Positions 16,131 through 36,030 of a DNA stretch of 37,653 bases are shown here, piece by piece; position 1 is the stretch's first letter, and every line of letters begins with the position of its first letter. The notes under the pieces are model-generated. The model was given only the letters and a program-made list of their open reading frames with translations. It ran no database searches and was not told where the DNA came from. Source of the DNA: an uncultured Alphaproteobacteria bacterium (lineage in GTDB: Bacteria; Pseudomonadota; Alphaproteobacteria; HIMB59; GCA-002718135); contig CACNHX010000011.1 of assembly GCA_902620425.1 (NCBI GenBank), positions 1 through 37,653 of the forward strand. The letters run 5' to 3'. Position numbers and translations under genes: made by a program.

Positions 16131-17837
16131 TTAGTACATAAAATAACGTTGAGCTAAAGGTAGTGTTTCAGCTGGCTCACAAGTAATTAATTCACCATCT
16201 GCTAAAACTTCATAAGTTTCTGGATTCACTTCGATTTTTGGACAATAATCATTTAACATCATATCTTTTTTAGAAATTTGTCTAATATTTTTAACTGGCA
16301 ATAAAGATTTACTAATTCCAGAATTTTTGAATGAATTTTTATCAAGAGATGCTTTACTTACAAATGTTGTGGTAGATTTTTCTAATGATTTTCCAAAAGA
16401 AGAAAACATTGGTCTAGAATACACTGGTTGAGGTGTTGGAATAGAAGCATTCGGATCACCCATTTGCGCGCAAGCAATACTTCCACCTTGCAAAACCATT
16501 TCAGGCTTAACACCAAAAAAAGCTGTGTCCCAAATGACAATATCTGCACGCTTGTTCTTTTCGATACTTCCAATATGATCTGAAATACCATGAGCAATTG
16601 CAGGGTTAATTGTATATTTAGCTATATAACGTTTAACACGTAAATTATCATTATTACCTTGCTCTTCCTTTAATTGTCCCCTTTGAACTTTCATTTTATG
16701 TGCGGTTTGCCATGTTCTAATAATAACTTCACCAACACGACCCATTGCTTGACTATCAGATGCAATAATTGAAAATGCACCCATATCATGCAGTATATCT
16801 TCAGCAGCAATGGTTTCTTTTCGAATACGACTTTCAGCAAATGCAACATCTTCAGGTATTGATTTATCAAGGTGATGACAAACCATTAACATATCTAAGT
16901 GTTCCTCAACTGTGTTAACTGTATAAGGTCTTGTTGGGTTTGTTGAAGATGGAATAACATATTCTTCACCACAAACTTTTATAATATCTGGTGCATGACC
17001 TCCTCCTGCTCCCTCTGTATGAAATGCATGAATAGTTCTTCCATTAATTGCTTTTATCGTACTCTCTACAAATCCACTTTCATTCAATGTATCAGTGTGA
17101 ATCATAACTTGAATGTCATGTTCATCAGCTACATTTAAACAATTATCGATAGCTGCTGGAGTTGTACCCCAATCTTCATGAAGTTTTAATGAACTTGCTC
17201 CAGCAATTACTTGTTCTTCCAGCGCTTTGGGTAATGAACTATTTCCTTTTCCTGCAAAAGCTAAGTTCATAGAAAAAGCATCAGCAGATTGTATCATTCT
17301 CTCTATGTGCCATGGTCCTGGTGTAACAGTCGTTGCTAAAGTCCCATGAGCAGGACCAGTTCCGCCTCCGAGCATCGTTGTTATGCCTGAGTGAAGTGCA
17401 TCATCAATTTGTTGAGGGCAAATAAAATGAATATGACTATCAAAACCTCCAGCTGTTATAATTTTTCCCTCACCCGCAATTATTTCTGTTCCAGGTCCTA
17501 TAATAATATTTACATTTGGTTGTGTGTCTGGATTACCAGCCTTTCCAATCTCATTAATTAAGCCATCTTTAAGACCAATATCAGCTTTATAAATTCCATT
17601 TACATCAACAATTAAAGCGTTTGTTATAACTGTATCGACAGAACCGTCTTGTCGAGATACTTGAGACTGACCCATTCCGTCTCGGATAACTTTACCTCCA
17701 CCAAATTTTACTTCTTCACCGTATGTTGTTAGATCTTTTTCTATTTCAATAAAAAGTTCAGTGTCAGCAAGTCTAATTTTATCTCCAGTTGTTGGACCAT
17801 ACATATCAGCATAAGCATCTCTTTTTATTTTTTTCAT
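16131..17837 (-). CDS. ureC: Urease alpha subunit (catalytic)
   Basis: A 568-residue urease alpha subunit; it hydrolyses urea to ammonia and carbamate with a di-nickel centre. All active-site residues are present, one position later than in Klebsiella numbering: His135 and His137 (FDSHIHF), carbamylated Lys218 with His220 (LKLHED), His247 (HTDTLNE), His273 ([10 protein letters not shown]), flap His321 (VCHHLD) and Asp361 (ASDSQAMGR). It ends with the conserved aromatic tail QRYFMY. Its ATG overlaps the ureB stop by one base. It looks fully functional. Confidence 0.99.
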
Positions 17838-31781: not shown

Positions 31782-32621
31782 TTATTGTTGAGAATTATTT
31801 TCCAATGTTTGTACATGAATATCTAAGTTTTCTATAACTGCATCATTATTAATATTTCCATAAAAAACACCTTTAATAGGTGATGCGTAACTTGCATCAA
31901 GCCCACAAGAAACACGGACATATCTTTCATCAGGACTACATTTGTTTGTCGGGTCAAATCCTACCCATCCTAAATCATTAATATAAAACTCAGCCCAAGC
32001 ATGAGTAGATTGAAATTCTGAAGAATGAGAATTGTTGTGCATATAACCATTTACATATCTAGCAGGAATTCCTAAAGTTTTTGCTGCTGCAATCATAATA
32101 TGTGCTTGATCCTGACAAACTCCCTTTTTCTGATTAAATGCTTCAATTGCTGTTGTTTGATTATTTGTTGTTAAAGGTTTGTATTCAATTTTTTCAGCTA
32201 CTAGATTCATCAGATTATGAGATGTTTCTAGATTTTCATTTTCATTAAAACCATTTTTAGCTTCAATAGCTAAATTTTTTATATCCGCATTTGCTTTTGT
32301 TAAATTTGATTCTCTTAAATAAACTAAAGGATCTATTTTATCAGAAGCACTCTGGTAAATTCCTTTTGTATCAAATGTTTCAACTTTTCCAAGAACTGTA
32401 AATTGTATTTTTTTCACCTTGTTTGTATTTGTAAAACTTTGAATATTATTAGCCTCACCATCCTGATAAATTTTTGATTTTTTGGCTGAATCATTATGGA
32501 CATTCCACTCTAAAATTTTAAGACCATTATATTCTGAAGGATGCAGTTTAGTGGTTTGAATTAATCCCGCAACTGGATTTTTATATTCATACTTAGTTGT
32601 GTGTTCGATTATTAGTTCCAT
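31782..32621 (-). CDS. Transglutaminase-like protein of the ATP-grasp/alpha-E operon
   Basis: Start chosen at ATG 32621, one base after the alpha-E stop; it gives MELIIEHTTKYEYKNPVAGL, the start of the bacterial transglutaminase-like N-terminal domain, and 279 residues. The papain-like triad is Cys169 (KGVCQDQAHIM), His207 (STHAWAEFYI) and Asp223 (GWVGFDPTN). Such domains cleave or form amide bonds. Family members almost always sit with circularly permuted ATP-grasp and alpha-E genes, as here, and are thought to process a peptide or protein substrate made or modified by the ATP-grasp partner. The substrate is not known. Confidence 0.92.
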   Translation of the reverse strand: MELIIEHTTKYEYKNPVAGLIQTTKLHPSEYNGLKILEWNVHNDSAKKSKIYQDGEANNIQSFTNTNKVKKIQFTVLGKVETFDTKGIYQSASDKIDPLVYLRESNLTKANADIKNLAIEAKNGFNENENLETSHNLMNLVAEKIEYKPLTTNNQTTAIEAFNQKKGVCQDQAHIMIAAAKTLGIPARYVNGYMHNNSHSSEFQSTHAWAEFYINDLGWVGFDPTNKCSPDERYVRVSCGLDASYASPIKGVFYGNINNDAVIENLDIHVQTLENNSQQ

Positions 32622-32622
32622 A

Positions 32623-33558
32623 TTAATTAAAAAACTCCTTATGTATTTCGTTATCAACACTAGATATTTTTCTAATAAATTGTGTTACAAATTGATGAAG
32701 TCCATATTCAACAATAGTTTCTATTTTTTCTTCTTGAATTTTAGTATTTAGATCTTTTAAATTATTATAAATTCTTCCAACTTTTTCTGGACTGCATCTT
32801 AGGTTAGTTAAATGTTTAACAATATTCTGAATACAAAAACTTAAAGATCTAGGGCAATTATTATTTAGAACTAAAAAGTCAGCAATTTTGGTTGCGGTAA
32901 TATTACCATCGTATGCCCATCTAAAAGCTCTAAAAGAAGATAAAGAGCGAAGCAATATACTCCATTGCATATTATCGATATTACCACCCACATATTGAGG
33001 CTTAGGTAATAAAACAAAATACTTTACATCTAATAATCTGGCAGAATTATCTGCCCTCTCAATAAATAAACCAAGAAAAAGAAAATTATAACCATCATTT
33101 CTCAGCAAAGAACTTAATGATCCTCTAAATAAGTTTACTTGTTCTATTGTCCACTCTGTCAGATTAGGTAAATCAGATTTTGTAAATTTTTGTTCTTTTA
33201 AGTTTAGTATCTCTTGATAAGTTTTATTAATTGCTAACCAAGACTCAGGGGTAAAGGAAGTTCTAACTACTAATGCGTTATTTCGTGCATTAAGAATACA
33301 ATTGTAAACAGATGAAGGATTACTTTCATCAAAAAATAAATAATCTTCCACATTTTTCTGTTCAATTGTATCATATTTATTTTTATACCCCTCAATTGCT
33401 CCAGCAGCAGATAAAACTGATTCCCATTCATTGTTATAACCACTTGGATTTGGAAAAAGAGACATTCTATAACCAACATCTAAAAGCCTGGCTGTAGTTT
33501 CAGCTCTTTCCATATAACGACTGATCCAATATAGATATTCAGCAGTTCTACTTAACAT
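32623..33558 (-). CDS. Alpha-E domain protein
   Basis: A 311-residue all-helical protein of the alpha-E family (PF04168). It has the hallmark start MLSRTAEYLYWISRYMERAE followed by TTARLLDVGYRMSL, and the second copy-like segment LFLGLFIERADNSARLLDVK at about 166-185; the conserved 'ER(A)(D/E)N.AR' core recurs in both halves. Its biochemical role is unknown, but it is invariably linked to ATP-grasp and transglutaminase-like genes. It lies 9 bp after the ATP-grasp gene and 1 bp before the transglutaminase start, so the three are one translational unit. Confidence 0.93.
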   Translation of the reverse strand: MLSRTAEYLYWISRYMERAETTARLLDVGYRMSLFPNPSGYNNEWESVLSAAGAIEGYKNKYDTIEQKNVEDYLFFDESNPSSVYNCILNARNNALVVRTSFTPESWLAINKTYQEILNLKEQKFTKSDLPNLTEWTIEQVNLFRGSLSSLLRNDGYNFLFLGLFIERADNSARLLDVKYFVLLPKPQYVGGNIDNMQWSILLRSLSSFRAFRWAYDGNITATKIADFLVLNNNCPRSLSFCIQNIVKHLTNLRCSPEKVGRIYNNLKDLNTKIQEEKIETIVEYGLHQFVTQFIRKISSVDNEIHKEFFN

Positions 33559-33567
33559 TTTTATTCC

Positions 33568-34974
33568 TCATTCAGCCAAAACCCATGTGTCTTTCACACC
33601 GCCTCCTTGGCTAGAATTTACAACAAACGATCCTTCATTCATTGCAACTCTAGTTAAGCCACCAGAACTTAATTGAGCTTGCTCTCCAATTAAACAAAAT
33701 GGACGTAAATCTACCCTTCTTCCCTCAACTTGATTTTTGATTAGTGTTGGTGAAAATGAAAGATCAAGTAAAGGTTGAGCTATATATCCCTTTGGATTTG
33801 TTGAGAGTTTTGTTTTAAATTCATCTATAGAGGATTTAGAAGATTTTGGACCTATTAACATCCCATAACCTCCAGATCCATCAACCTCTTTTACGACAAG
33901 TTCATTTATATTATCTAAAACATATTTTAATTCTTGTTCTTTTTCGCAATTCCATGTTTCAACATTATCTAAGATTGGTTGTTCGCCTAAATAAAATTTG
34001 ATCATCTCAGGTACATAAATATAAATTGCTTTGTCATCAGCTATGCCTGCTCCAGGAGCTGAACAGATATTGACACCACCTGTTCTATAAACATCCATAA
34101 TGCCTGGAATACCAATTACAGATTGAGGATTAAAACATAGAGGATCTAAAAAATCGTCATCTATTCTTCTGTAAACAACATCTACTCTTTTTGGACCATC
34201 AACTGTTTTCATATAAAGATATTTTCCTTCAACAAATAAATCTGTTGATTCAACCATTTCAATACCCATTTGATCAGATAAAAAACTATGTTCGTAATAA
34301 GCGCTATTTAAAGGACCAGGTGTAAGTAACACACATACTGGTTCTGGATTTTCACATTTAATAGGAGCCAAGCTCATCAAGGTTTGCAAAAGTCTTGTTG
34401 GGTAGTCATCTATTGGTGTTACTCTATTGTTATGAAATAAATCAGGAAACATTCGCATCATTATTTCTCTATTTTCTAGCATGTAAGAAACACCACTTGG
34501 TGTTCGACAATTATCTTCTAAAACAAAATAATCATTGGGGCCTGTTCTTACTAAATCAATACCAATTATAGGACTATAGATATCTCTAGGAGGAGAAAAA
34601 CCAAACATTGAAGGTTCAAAAGATTTTTTTTTGTAAATAATTTCTTTAGGAATTATATTAGCTTTTATTATTTCACCTTGATTATAAATATCAGCAAGAA
34701 ACGCATTAAGTGCTTTAGCTCTTTGGATTACTCCTCTTTCTAATCTTAACCATTCAGTATAGGTAAATATCCTTGGAATTAGATCAAACGGAATAATTCT
34801 TTCTCTTGCAGTTTCGTTATTTGTAGAAAATGTAATTCCAATATTTCTAAAATGAGTTTCAGCTTCAGCATTCTTTTCAAGAATAACTTTTGAAGTCATT
34901 TGATCTAACCAATCATTAATATTGTTATAATGATTTCTTATAACTGATTCAGATTGATACATTTCATTAAACAT
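33568..34974 (-). CDS. Circularly permuted ATP-grasp protein (predicted amide ligase)
   Basis: A 468-residue protein of the circularly permuted ATP-grasp type 2 family (PF04174/PF14403). Landmarks are IPFDLIPRIFTYTEWLRLER (about 61-80), GIDLVRTGPNDYFVLEDNCR, RTPSGVSYMLENR, VVKEVDGSGGYGMLIGPKSS and the C-terminal VDLRPFCLIG with SSGGLTRVA. ATP-grasp enzymes activate a carboxylate with ATP and join it to an amine. Start taken at ATG 34974, which shares its A with the TGA of a 20-codon leader ORF; a TTG precedes it in frame. First full gene of the trio; its 5' leader has two glutamine-riboswitch-like elements. Confidence 0.93.
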   Translation of the reverse strand: MFNEMYQSESVIRNHYNNINDWLDQMTSKVILEKNAEAETHFRNIGITFSTNNETARERIIPFDLIPRIFTYTEWLRLERGVIQRAKALNAFLADIYNQGEIIKANIIPKEIIYKKKSFEPSMFGFSPPRDIYSPIIGIDLVRTGPNDYFVLEDNCRTPSGVSYMLENREIMMRMFPDLFHNNRVTPIDDYPTRLLQTLMSLAPIKCENPEPVCVLLTPGPLNSAYYEHSFLSDQMGIEMVESTDLFVEGKYLYMKTVDGPKRVDVVYRRIDDDFLDPLCFNPQSVIGIPGIMDVYRTGGVNICSAPGAGIADDKAIYIYVPEMIKFYLGEQPILDNVETWNCEKEQELKYVLDNINELVVKEVDGSGGYGMLIGPKSSKSSIDEFKTKLSTNPKGYIAQPLLDLSFSPTLIKNQVEGRRVDLRPFCLIGEQAQLSSGGLTRVAMNEGSFVVNSSQGGGVKDTWVLAE

Positions 34975-35036
34975 CAAGAAGTAAACCTCTTGAGGTGTGA
35001 ATAAAATATCTTTTTATTATCTAACTTTTTAACCAT
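34974..35036 (-). CDS. Putative 20-codon leader ORF overlapping the ATP-grasp start
   Basis: ATG at 35036 opens a frame of 20 codons (MVKKLDNKKI, then FYSHLKRFTS) ending in TGA that overlaps the ATP-grasp ATG as TGATG, a usual coupling arrangement. AAGAAAGG lies 12 bases upstream and could serve as a weak ribosome-binding site; it falls in the loop of a hairpin whose 3' arm covers the ATG. The peptide is basic. It may be a regulatory leader, a small substrate peptide, or chance; no homologue is recognised. Confidence 0.4.
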   Translation of the reverse strand: MVKKLDNKKIFYSHLKRFTS

Positions 35037-35084
35037 AGTTATAACAAACCTTTCTTATCCGTTATAATTCATGCTTAGCTATGG
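35033..35084 (-). promoter_or_regulatory. Large imperfect hairpin, candidate riboswitch expression platform
   Basis: CCATAG (35033-35038) and CTATGG (35079-35084) form an outer stem; TTATAAC (35039-35045) and GTTATAA (35061-35067) continue it inward with an 11-nt bulge on one side. On the minus-strand RNA the loop is purine-rich (GGATAAGAAAGG) and the 3' arm holds the leader ORF start. It lies 19 bp downstream of the second riboswitch. No T-run follows, so translational rather than transcriptional control would fit. Confidence 0.5.
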
Positions 35085-35102
35085 AAATTAATAATAAGAT
35101 CC

Positions 35103-35153
35103 GCGTTCCTTCAGCTTTAGCCTACTTCCGATCTGTAAAACAGATTGAACGAT
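35103..35153 (-). ncRNA. Glutamine riboswitch (glnA RNA type), downstream copy
   Basis: Read on the minus strand from 35153: ATCGTTCA, stem P2 ATCTG/CAGAT with loop TTTTA, then CGGAAGTAGG, P3 with loop TAAA, and GAAGGAACGC. CGTTC and GAACG form P1. This matches the glnA RNA consensus as I remember it (CGUUCA - CGGAAGUAGG - GAAGGAACGC), a three-stem junction known to bind L-glutamine. It lies about 130 nt before the ATP-grasp start. An alignment to Rfam glnA RNA would confirm it. Confidence 0.88.
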
Positions 35154-35167
35154 TTAATAACTTGCAT

Positions 35168-35220
35168 GCGTTCCTTCAACTTTCGTTTACTTCCGTTTTG
35201 AATTATTCAAAATGAACGAT
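35168..35220 (-). ncRNA. Glutamine riboswitch (glnA RNA type), upstream copy
   Basis: Second copy on the minus strand from 35220: ATCGTTCA, P2 TTTTGAA/TTCAAAA with loop TAA, CGGAAGTA, P3 AAC/GTT with loop GAAA, then GAAGGAACGC. The core bases are identical to the downstream copy, while P2 and P3 differ by paired, compensatory changes, strong evidence for a selected RNA structure. The copies are offset by about 65-67 bp. Tandem arrangement is known for this class and makes the response to glutamine steeper or more graded. Confidence 0.88.
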
Positions 35221-35322: not shown

Positions 35323-36030
35323 TTAATAGTCTTTTATTGATCTAAGAAAACAAATATAAATAAAATAGCCCGTACAAATTAACCATATTAAAAGAACAAT
35401 TGTATCATTTATAATTAAGTTTATTTCTGATTTTGTTACTAATCGCAGTGTTGTTGCTGCCCAAACAACAGTAAAAAAAATCGTTAAATTTCTAAATGAT
35501 TTTACTCTTAGTGGATGAACAAACTTCCATGGAACGAATGTCAATACTGATAGAATAATTATCACAATTAGGTTTATCCATTCATTCGTATTTAATATAA
35601 AGAAATATAAAACCACAACATTCCAGACTGCAGGAAATCCTTGGAAATAATAATCATCCGTTTTCATATTAACGTTGATAAAAGTGTACAAAGAAACTCC
35701 AAATATAAGAGCAGGCATAATCATTTCAAAACCTGATGGCACCATCTGAAACCAATAAATCATTAAAGCTGGGTTAATAACGTAATTTAGATAATCAATA
35801 ATGGAATCTAAAATAATCCCATCTAGATTTGGTGCTTTTTCTTCAACTCCAACCTTCCTAGCTAATGTTCCATCAACTCCATCTACAAGTAAAGCCATAC
35901 CAAGCCATAAAAAGCTACCAACTTGGTCATTATTTAATATTGATATTAAAGCAAGAAAACCAAGTATAGCTCCAGAGCCAGTGAAGGCATGAACACCCCA
36001 TGCAGATATTTGATCTTTATCAACTTTCAT
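35323..36030 (-). CDS. pcs: Phosphatidylcholine synthase (CDP-alcohol phosphatidyltransferase)
   Basis: A 235-residue membrane enzyme that condenses choline with CDP-diacylglycerol to make phosphatidylcholine in one step. The CDP-alcohol motif is spread over DGVDGTLARKVGVEE and NLDGIILDSIIDYLNY (about 50-84), with the enlarged spacing typical of Pcs rather than PgsA/PssA. FQGFPAVWNVVVLYF (about 129-143) and the segment VPWKFVHPLRVKSFR (about 166-180) are further Pcs features. About eight membrane helices. This enzyme is common in alphaproteobacteria. Choline would have to come from uptake; no such gene lies nearby. Confidence 0.9.
   Translation of the reverse strand: MKVDKDQISAWGVHAFTGSGAILGFLALISILNNDQVGSFLWLGMALLVDGVDGTLARKVGVEEKAPNLDGIILDSIIDYLNYVINPALMIYWFQMVPSGFEMIMPALIFGVSLYTFINVNMKTDDYYFQGFPAVWNVVVLYFFILNTNEWINLIVIIILSVLTFVPWKFVHPLRVKSFRNLTIFFTVVWAATTLRLVTKSEINLIINDTIVLLIWLICTGYFIYICFLRSIKDY

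Follow-up and report, generated by a model that had tools for sequence, protein, structure and literature searches.

Tandem glutamine riboswitches as the probable control of an ATP-grasp, Alpha-E and transglutaminase operon in marine Alphaproteobacteria

The locus and its leader

The window, i.e. the whole analysed stretch of 37,653 nucleotides from an uncultured alphaproteobacterium, carries on its minus strand a trio of genes behind two aptamers of the glutamine riboswitch family. Pfam bears out the gene order given in the earlier note, with a circularly permuted ATP-grasp followed by an Alpha-E protein and a transglutaminase. In the direction of transcription, the features are:

35323..36030, minus strand: CDP-alcohol phosphatidyltransferase, upstream neighbour outside the system (Pfam PF01066, E 2.1e-06)
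35165..35220, minus strand: glutamine riboswitch aptamer 1 (RF01739; cmscan 66.0 bits, E 1.2e-12)
35157..35168, minus strand: 5' strand of the probable helix P0 (CATGC-A-AGTTAT) in the inter-aptamer linker (RNAalifold on 90 distinct tandem leaders; duplex shuffles)
35100..35153, minus strand: glutamine riboswitch aptamer 2 (RF01739; cmscan 63.7 bits, E 5.5e-12)
35069..35084, minus strand: post-aptamer element CCATAGCTAAGCATGA, containing the 3' strand of P0 (ATAGCT-AA-GCATG, 35082-35070; leader alignments)
34974..35036, minus strand: leader ORF of 20 codons, its stop overlapping the ATP-grasp start (TGATG)
33568..34974, minus strand: circularly permuted ATP-grasp ligase-like protein, CP_ATPgrasp (PF14403 E 4.4e-153, PF04174; PDB relative 3n6x, E 4.6e-175)
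32623..33558, minus strand: Alpha-E protein (Pfam PF04168, E 2.1e-86)
31782..32624, minus strand: transglutaminase-like protein (PF01841 E 1.3e-24, PF08379; PDB relative 3isr, E 1.4e-13)

For the ATP-grasp gene, the ATG at 34974 was picked by us as the start, while the mechanical ORF begins at a TTG at 34977. The transglutaminase ORF reaches back to a GTG at 32660; its start is presumably the ATG at 32624, which overlaps the Alpha-E stop. Its sequence contains GVCQDQ, STHAWAEF and FDPTN, which we take to hold the Cys, His and Asp of the transglutaminase motif.

Scanning the whole window against 4227 families (cmscan) gave two minus-strand RF01739 matches, each over the full length of the model (1-53) and far above its gathering score of 35 bits, so that the tandem glutamine riboswitches proposed from the letters alone are borne out. 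The range first noted for them, 35103-35220, falls 3 bases short at one end, since aptamer 2 reaches 35100. Both copies share CGTTCA, CGGAAGTA and GAAGGAACGC, and the paired changes between them in stems P2 and P3 are present in the sequence as described. In a set of 90 different tandem leaders, the stems P2 and P3 vary mostly in pairs in both aptamers, with several standard pair types around a conserved junction, the letters of which were in part demanded by the pattern used to collect the leaders; some non-standard pairs also enter the P2/P3 counts, partly due to alignment gaps. P1 is invariant in this set, most of it having been demanded by the same pattern. As full-length members of the family, the aptamers would be expected to bind L-glutamine.

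The first base of the P0 5' strand comes right after the P1 3' strand of aptamer 1. RNAalifold on the 90 leaders pairs the linker with the post-aptamer element, in a helix that encloses aptamer 2 and abuts P1 of aptamer 1. In the window, the energy of this duplex was equalled or beaten by 8 of 2000 mononucleotide and 42 of 2000 dinucleotide shuffles, making it the weakest case, as in the other four leaders examined the linker shuffles equalled the duplex energy only 1 to 9 times in 2000. The genome has three exact copies of a 15-mer of the element, each at a riboswitch locus, and one unrelated site with two mismatches, and the glnA leader carries the variant CATAACTAGAGCATGA. P0 is almost invariant; its few changes (U-A/U-G, A-U/G-U) are consistent with pairing, and none is a trusted compensatory one, so the helix joining linker and element is considered probable rather than proven. 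Two-sided changes in upper P0 were left uncounted, being an artefact of the difference in linker length in the alignment.

The same 38-kb contig holds a urease alpha-subunit gene, ureC (16131-17837, minus strand), besides the trio (31782-34974). A match to RF02514 (5_ureB_sRNA; 17403-17687, plus strand, 101.1 bits) lies antisense to it and probably reflects the conserved urease coding sequence, not an sRNA gene. According to the available text of PMC3597751, correlations across marine metagenomes had already tied the domains of the trio to urea genes.

Occurrence of aptamers and trio across lineages

The genome (1.54 Mb, 90.8% complete) contains eight RF01739 aptamers, arranged as four tandem pairs. 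The three pairs outside the window sit before glnA, itself directly after glnB, and before two ammonium transporter (amtB) genes. These leaders closely resemble that of the trio, the aptamers being 17-18 nt apart and followed by a post-aptamer element of the same type. Among 101 genomes, searched with filters that miss some weak matches, RF01739 was found in 60: this one, 59 of 60 of the same genus and 0 of 40 from another family of the same order. The host of these RNAs is probably the marine genus AG-337-I02, a name used within the order HIMB59, also called AEGEAN-169 or SAR11 clade V (PMC8692485 and PMC12965618, both as far as their text was available).

Part of the hits of this search, those at ATP-grasp genes being left out, gave 60 further genus regions with 64 riboswitch clusters, 63 of which precede glnA (31) or an ammonium transporter (29 tandem, 3 single). 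The tandem clusters keep a P1-to-P1 gap of 17-18 nt. The last cluster (L259, around 1392, plus strand) is a tandem riboswitch with no downstream gene called on its strand, either an orphan or the remainder of a lost gene. The three single aptamers (L215, L244, L274) stand before a distinct type of ammonium transporter with 28-31% identity to those of the window genome; tandem copies are therefore not obligatory in the genus. The control elements that the trio has in common with glnA and amtB support the tie to nitrogen status drawn in the earlier note, and suggest that the trio is controlled together with ammonium uptake and glutamine synthesis.

The ATP-grasp gene was found in 45 of 81 genus genomes, the other 36 being mostly incomplete. 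Aptamers stand at all 43 of these genes that have a leader, namely the window, the 40 loci fetched from the other 44 genomes, and G027 and G008 (both pairs); in G055 and G108 the contig starts inside the gene. By regular expression, the 40 fetched loci comprise 38 pairs and two singles (L113 and L120, where the contig starts there), and Alpha-E and transglutaminase genes are present at all 40. A second set of 80 named loci, overlapping with the genus genomes, comprised 37 of the own group, 16 from Pelagibacteraceae and 27 of Rhodobacteraceae type. The same expression found aptamers at 36 of the 37 own-group loci (35 pairs, one single; L163 starts inside the gene), at 0 of the 16 Pelagibacteraceae loci, two of which have less than 70 nt upstream, and at 0 of the 27 Rhodobacteraceae-type loci. 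Nor did the covariance model detect an aptamer when run on 10 of the Pelagibacteraceae loci and 10 of those of Rhodobacteraceae type.

Within 385 genomes of the class, RF01739 matches occur in six: two of the own genus and four of a second family, here f10, with one aptamer each. In 11 of 11 f10 genomes the sole aptamer found lies 41-42 nt before the ATP-grasp start with the complete trio downstream, so that their glnA is left without a detected aptamer. In one f10 genus of 13 genomes, aptamer and ATP-grasp gene are both present in the same 10 and both missing from the other three. Flanking genes in f10 vary while the aptamer remains; a homologue of an aminotransferase lies behind the trio at 5 of the 11 loci, three of which also have glnB and glnA in reach. 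Operons without the elements whose motifs stay with the upstream gene, the outcome that would have spoken against the earlier note, were seen neither in the genus (43/43) nor in f10 (11/11). The aptamer-trio link that it proposed holds in these two lineages and fails in Pelagibacteraceae and Rhodobacteraceae-type loci, which makes it lineage-specific.

In a tree of 29 chosen ATP-grasps, the window protein groups with Pelagibacteraceae (98/99), not with f10. A single clade of the riboswitch-bearing proteins of both lineages, chosen for testing after that tree had been seen, was rejected (AU p 0.0013). Since the two do not group, the association either arose twice or was lost in Pelagibacteraceae. 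Family f2 of the same order, whose genomes gave no RF01739 match, has a different ATP-grasp (L312-L318, 48-49% identity); in 7 of the 10 genomes searched, an Anbu-like gene lies upstream of it in divergent orientation. The set viral_contigs gave 0 exact matches to the tandem-linker pattern; glutamine riboswitches have been reported from Pelagibacter and OM43 phages in the accessible part of PMC9004378.

The Pelagibacteraceae trios carry another element. The palindrome TGTCAAWTTGGCA occurs within one mismatch at -58 or -59 in 13 of the 14 leaders of usable length and with two mismatches at -58 in the fourteenth. Within two mismatches it is found in 0 of 36 own and 0 of 27 Rhodobacteraceae-type leaders, and mononucleotide shuffles match it within one mismatch in 1 of 1400. 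Four Pelagibacteraceae genomes hold 26 sites with up to one mismatch, vs 8 for the reversed control. These lie before the ATP-grasp gene (4/4), amtB (4/4) and glnB-glutamine synthetase (3/4), with P-II, glutamine synthetase and transporter each confirmed by Pfam on one palindrome-linked example. The remaining 15 comprise four inside an sdhC-like gene, four near an sdhB-like gene (one mismatch, in all four of L287, L294, L295 and L299) and seven scattered, the sdh names being our reading of the sequence and not from a family search. The palindrome presumably resembles NtrX sites. One regular expression found no sigma-54-like site upstream of the trio in nine Rhodobacteraceae-type loci, where NtrC control may nevertheless act.

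Direction and level of control

The proposed mechanism starts with each aptamer binding L-glutamine. The linker would pair with the element behind aptamer 2, and this pairing would fold both aptamers, together with the RNA ahead of the start codon, into a single unit. At high glutamine, the ligand-bound structure would cut translation of the leader ORF and, by coupled translation, that of the trio; at low glutamine, the trio would be made along with glutamine synthetase and the ammonium transporters. The role of the trio would then be that of an effector in nitrogen limitation, and its most likely activity would be to rework or release amide bonds in peptides or proteins. Taken as a whole, this explanation of a translational OFF switch is the one we consider likely.

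Translational control is favoured because no terminator-like site was found between the aptamers and the leader ORF; the single terminator-like hairpin (34993-34974) falls at the start of the ATP-grasp gene. In all 41 leaders of the genus (the window and the 40 fetched loci), a leader ORF of 16-25 codons is kept whose stop falls between 6 nt before and 8 nt after the ATP-grasp start. As translational coupling expects the stop at that place, we read the ORF as a coupling device. It might instead encode a precursor peptide modified by the trio, with the riboswitch governing peptide supply, and its presence in every leader, together with a positive net charge of the peptide in 39 of 41, would suit such a role. 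The peptide is not conserved, however, being almost entirely different between sub-lineages, and the changes by codon position (24 third, 20 first and 19 second in 23 leaders) give no clear third-position excess. The 41-42 nt between aptamer and ATG in f10 also leave little room for such an ORF, and the position of the stop is the one predicted by coupling. A precursor peptide is therefore quite improbable.

The direction of switching was modelled by comparing the openness of ribosome sites and start codons with the aptamers enforced:

Window-type leader-ORF ribosome site: less open in 0/41, more open in 7/41
ATP-grasp start ribosome site: less open in 18/41, more open in 8/41
f10 ribosome site: less open in 9/11, more open in 1/11
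glnA ribosome site: less open in 25/32, more open in 3/32
glnA start codon: more open in 26/32, opposite to its ribosome site
amtB_a ribosome site: less open in 6/18, more open in 6/18
amtB_b ribosome site: less open in 8/13, more open in 1/13

The models are mixed and partly contradictory. As they yield no single answer, the OFF reading rests on the logic of the regulon: by analogy with glnA and amtB, with which the trio appears to be co-controlled, glutamine probably switches the trio off. It also draws on the Anbu protein of nitrogen-limited Pseudomonas putida, which lies in operons with such a trio and rises under this limitation according to the available text of PMC5666114 and PMC6376114. 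Part of the nitrogen link offered as new in the earlier note was thus known already. Should glutamine turn the trio ON, as in the case of cyanobacterial gifB, the enzymes would act in nitrogen excess, for example in nitrogen storage or in modifying assimilation proteins. The two types of glutamine riboswitch tested in cyanobacteria do turn on with glutamine, as stated in the portion of PMC6316151 that was accessible, which counts against OFF, and the modelled leader-ORF site and glnA start codon both lean this way. Against it stand the closely similar leaders before glnA and amtB, which cells need when nitrogen is short, the rise of Anbu in P. putida and the f10 ribosome site, predicted to be less open in the bound fold. 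We consider an ON switch unlikely, albeit the strongest of the alternatives. Riboswitch classes include ligand variants, and the RNA could be one that binds another, glutamine-like ligand. Both aptamers fit the RF01739 consensus over its full length, however, and the remaining tandem pairs of the genome precede genes for glutamine and ammonium, making a variant ligand more improbable still than the precursor peptide. Finally, the aptamers could be a relic or serve another transcript, standing before the trio by chance; the 36 genus genomes without an ATP-grasp gene and the tandem leader L259 might be cited in favour. Such a reading is largely refuted by aptamers and trio standing together throughout two lineages whose ATP-grasps fall apart in the tree, and by the aptamer staying in f10 while its neighbours differ, so that chance is hardly credible.

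With the OFF switch preferred, the earlier idea of the trio making a nitrogen-rich peptide becomes doubtful, since enzymes under an OFF switch would appear under nitrogen shortage, a condition that suits salvage more than storage.

Related systems and biological meaning

According to the available text of PMC2864571, glnA RNAs in marine sequences had already been seen in tandem and in front of glnA, PII and ammonium transporter genes. The window leader belongs with these through its full-length matches over the cut-off and through the nitrogen genes behind the related leaders. It differs in its target, an amide-ligase trio (cyanobacterial genomes lying outside this comparison of targets), in its alphaproteobacterial host, and in the added leader ORF and proposed helix P0. 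The literature searched, which left out most subscription papers and included some sources in part, held no earlier report of a glutamine riboswitch before an ATP-grasp trio; a literature search also found no paper on Pelagibacter transglutaminase and nitrogen limitation. Tandem glycine and SAM-II/SAM-V riboswitches likewise place two aptamers in one leader. Compared by layout only, from sources available in part, the window leader differs in using one class twice, with the proposed linker-downstream helix enclosing aptamer 2. We regard as new the target, the hosts, the probable P0 helix and the leader ORF kept in frame in 41 of 41 leaders.

The locus shares the order of its ATP-grasp, Alpha-E and transglutaminase genes with the Anbu operon, but the window trio comes without Anbu. 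Among Rhodobacteraceae-type homologues (62-64% ATP-grasp identity), 25 of the 27 trios are followed by Anbu. At the 37 own-group, 16 Pelagibacteraceae and 11 f10 loci, several of them clipped by contig or fetch ends, no Anbu gene was seen next to the trio, and a PF00227 search of the 90.8% complete genome found HslV as the only proteasome-family match.

The physiological role of the trio is described as unconfirmed in the accessible text of PMC6376114. Because it sits behind glutamine aptamers, which in f10 are the only ones found per genome, this role narrows to nitrogen economy. The same 2018 review that describes the cyanobacterial switches (PMC6316151, available in part) restricts glutamine riboswitches to cyanobacteria and knows the glutamine synthetase, PII and transporter cases from environmental sequences only; cellular hosts can now be supplied for these glnA RNAs. 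The trio would come under three forms of control, a tandem glutamine riboswitch, a single one, and a putative regulator palindrome common to amtB and glnB-glutamine synthetase. The evidence is evenly balanced on the broader proposal that makes the Anbu-less trio a core effector of nitrogen limitation in ocean alphaproteobacteria, with at least these three control forms, and the P0-coupled OFF unit a new architecture. In these bacteria, one nitrogen gene set would stay together while its regulator changes.
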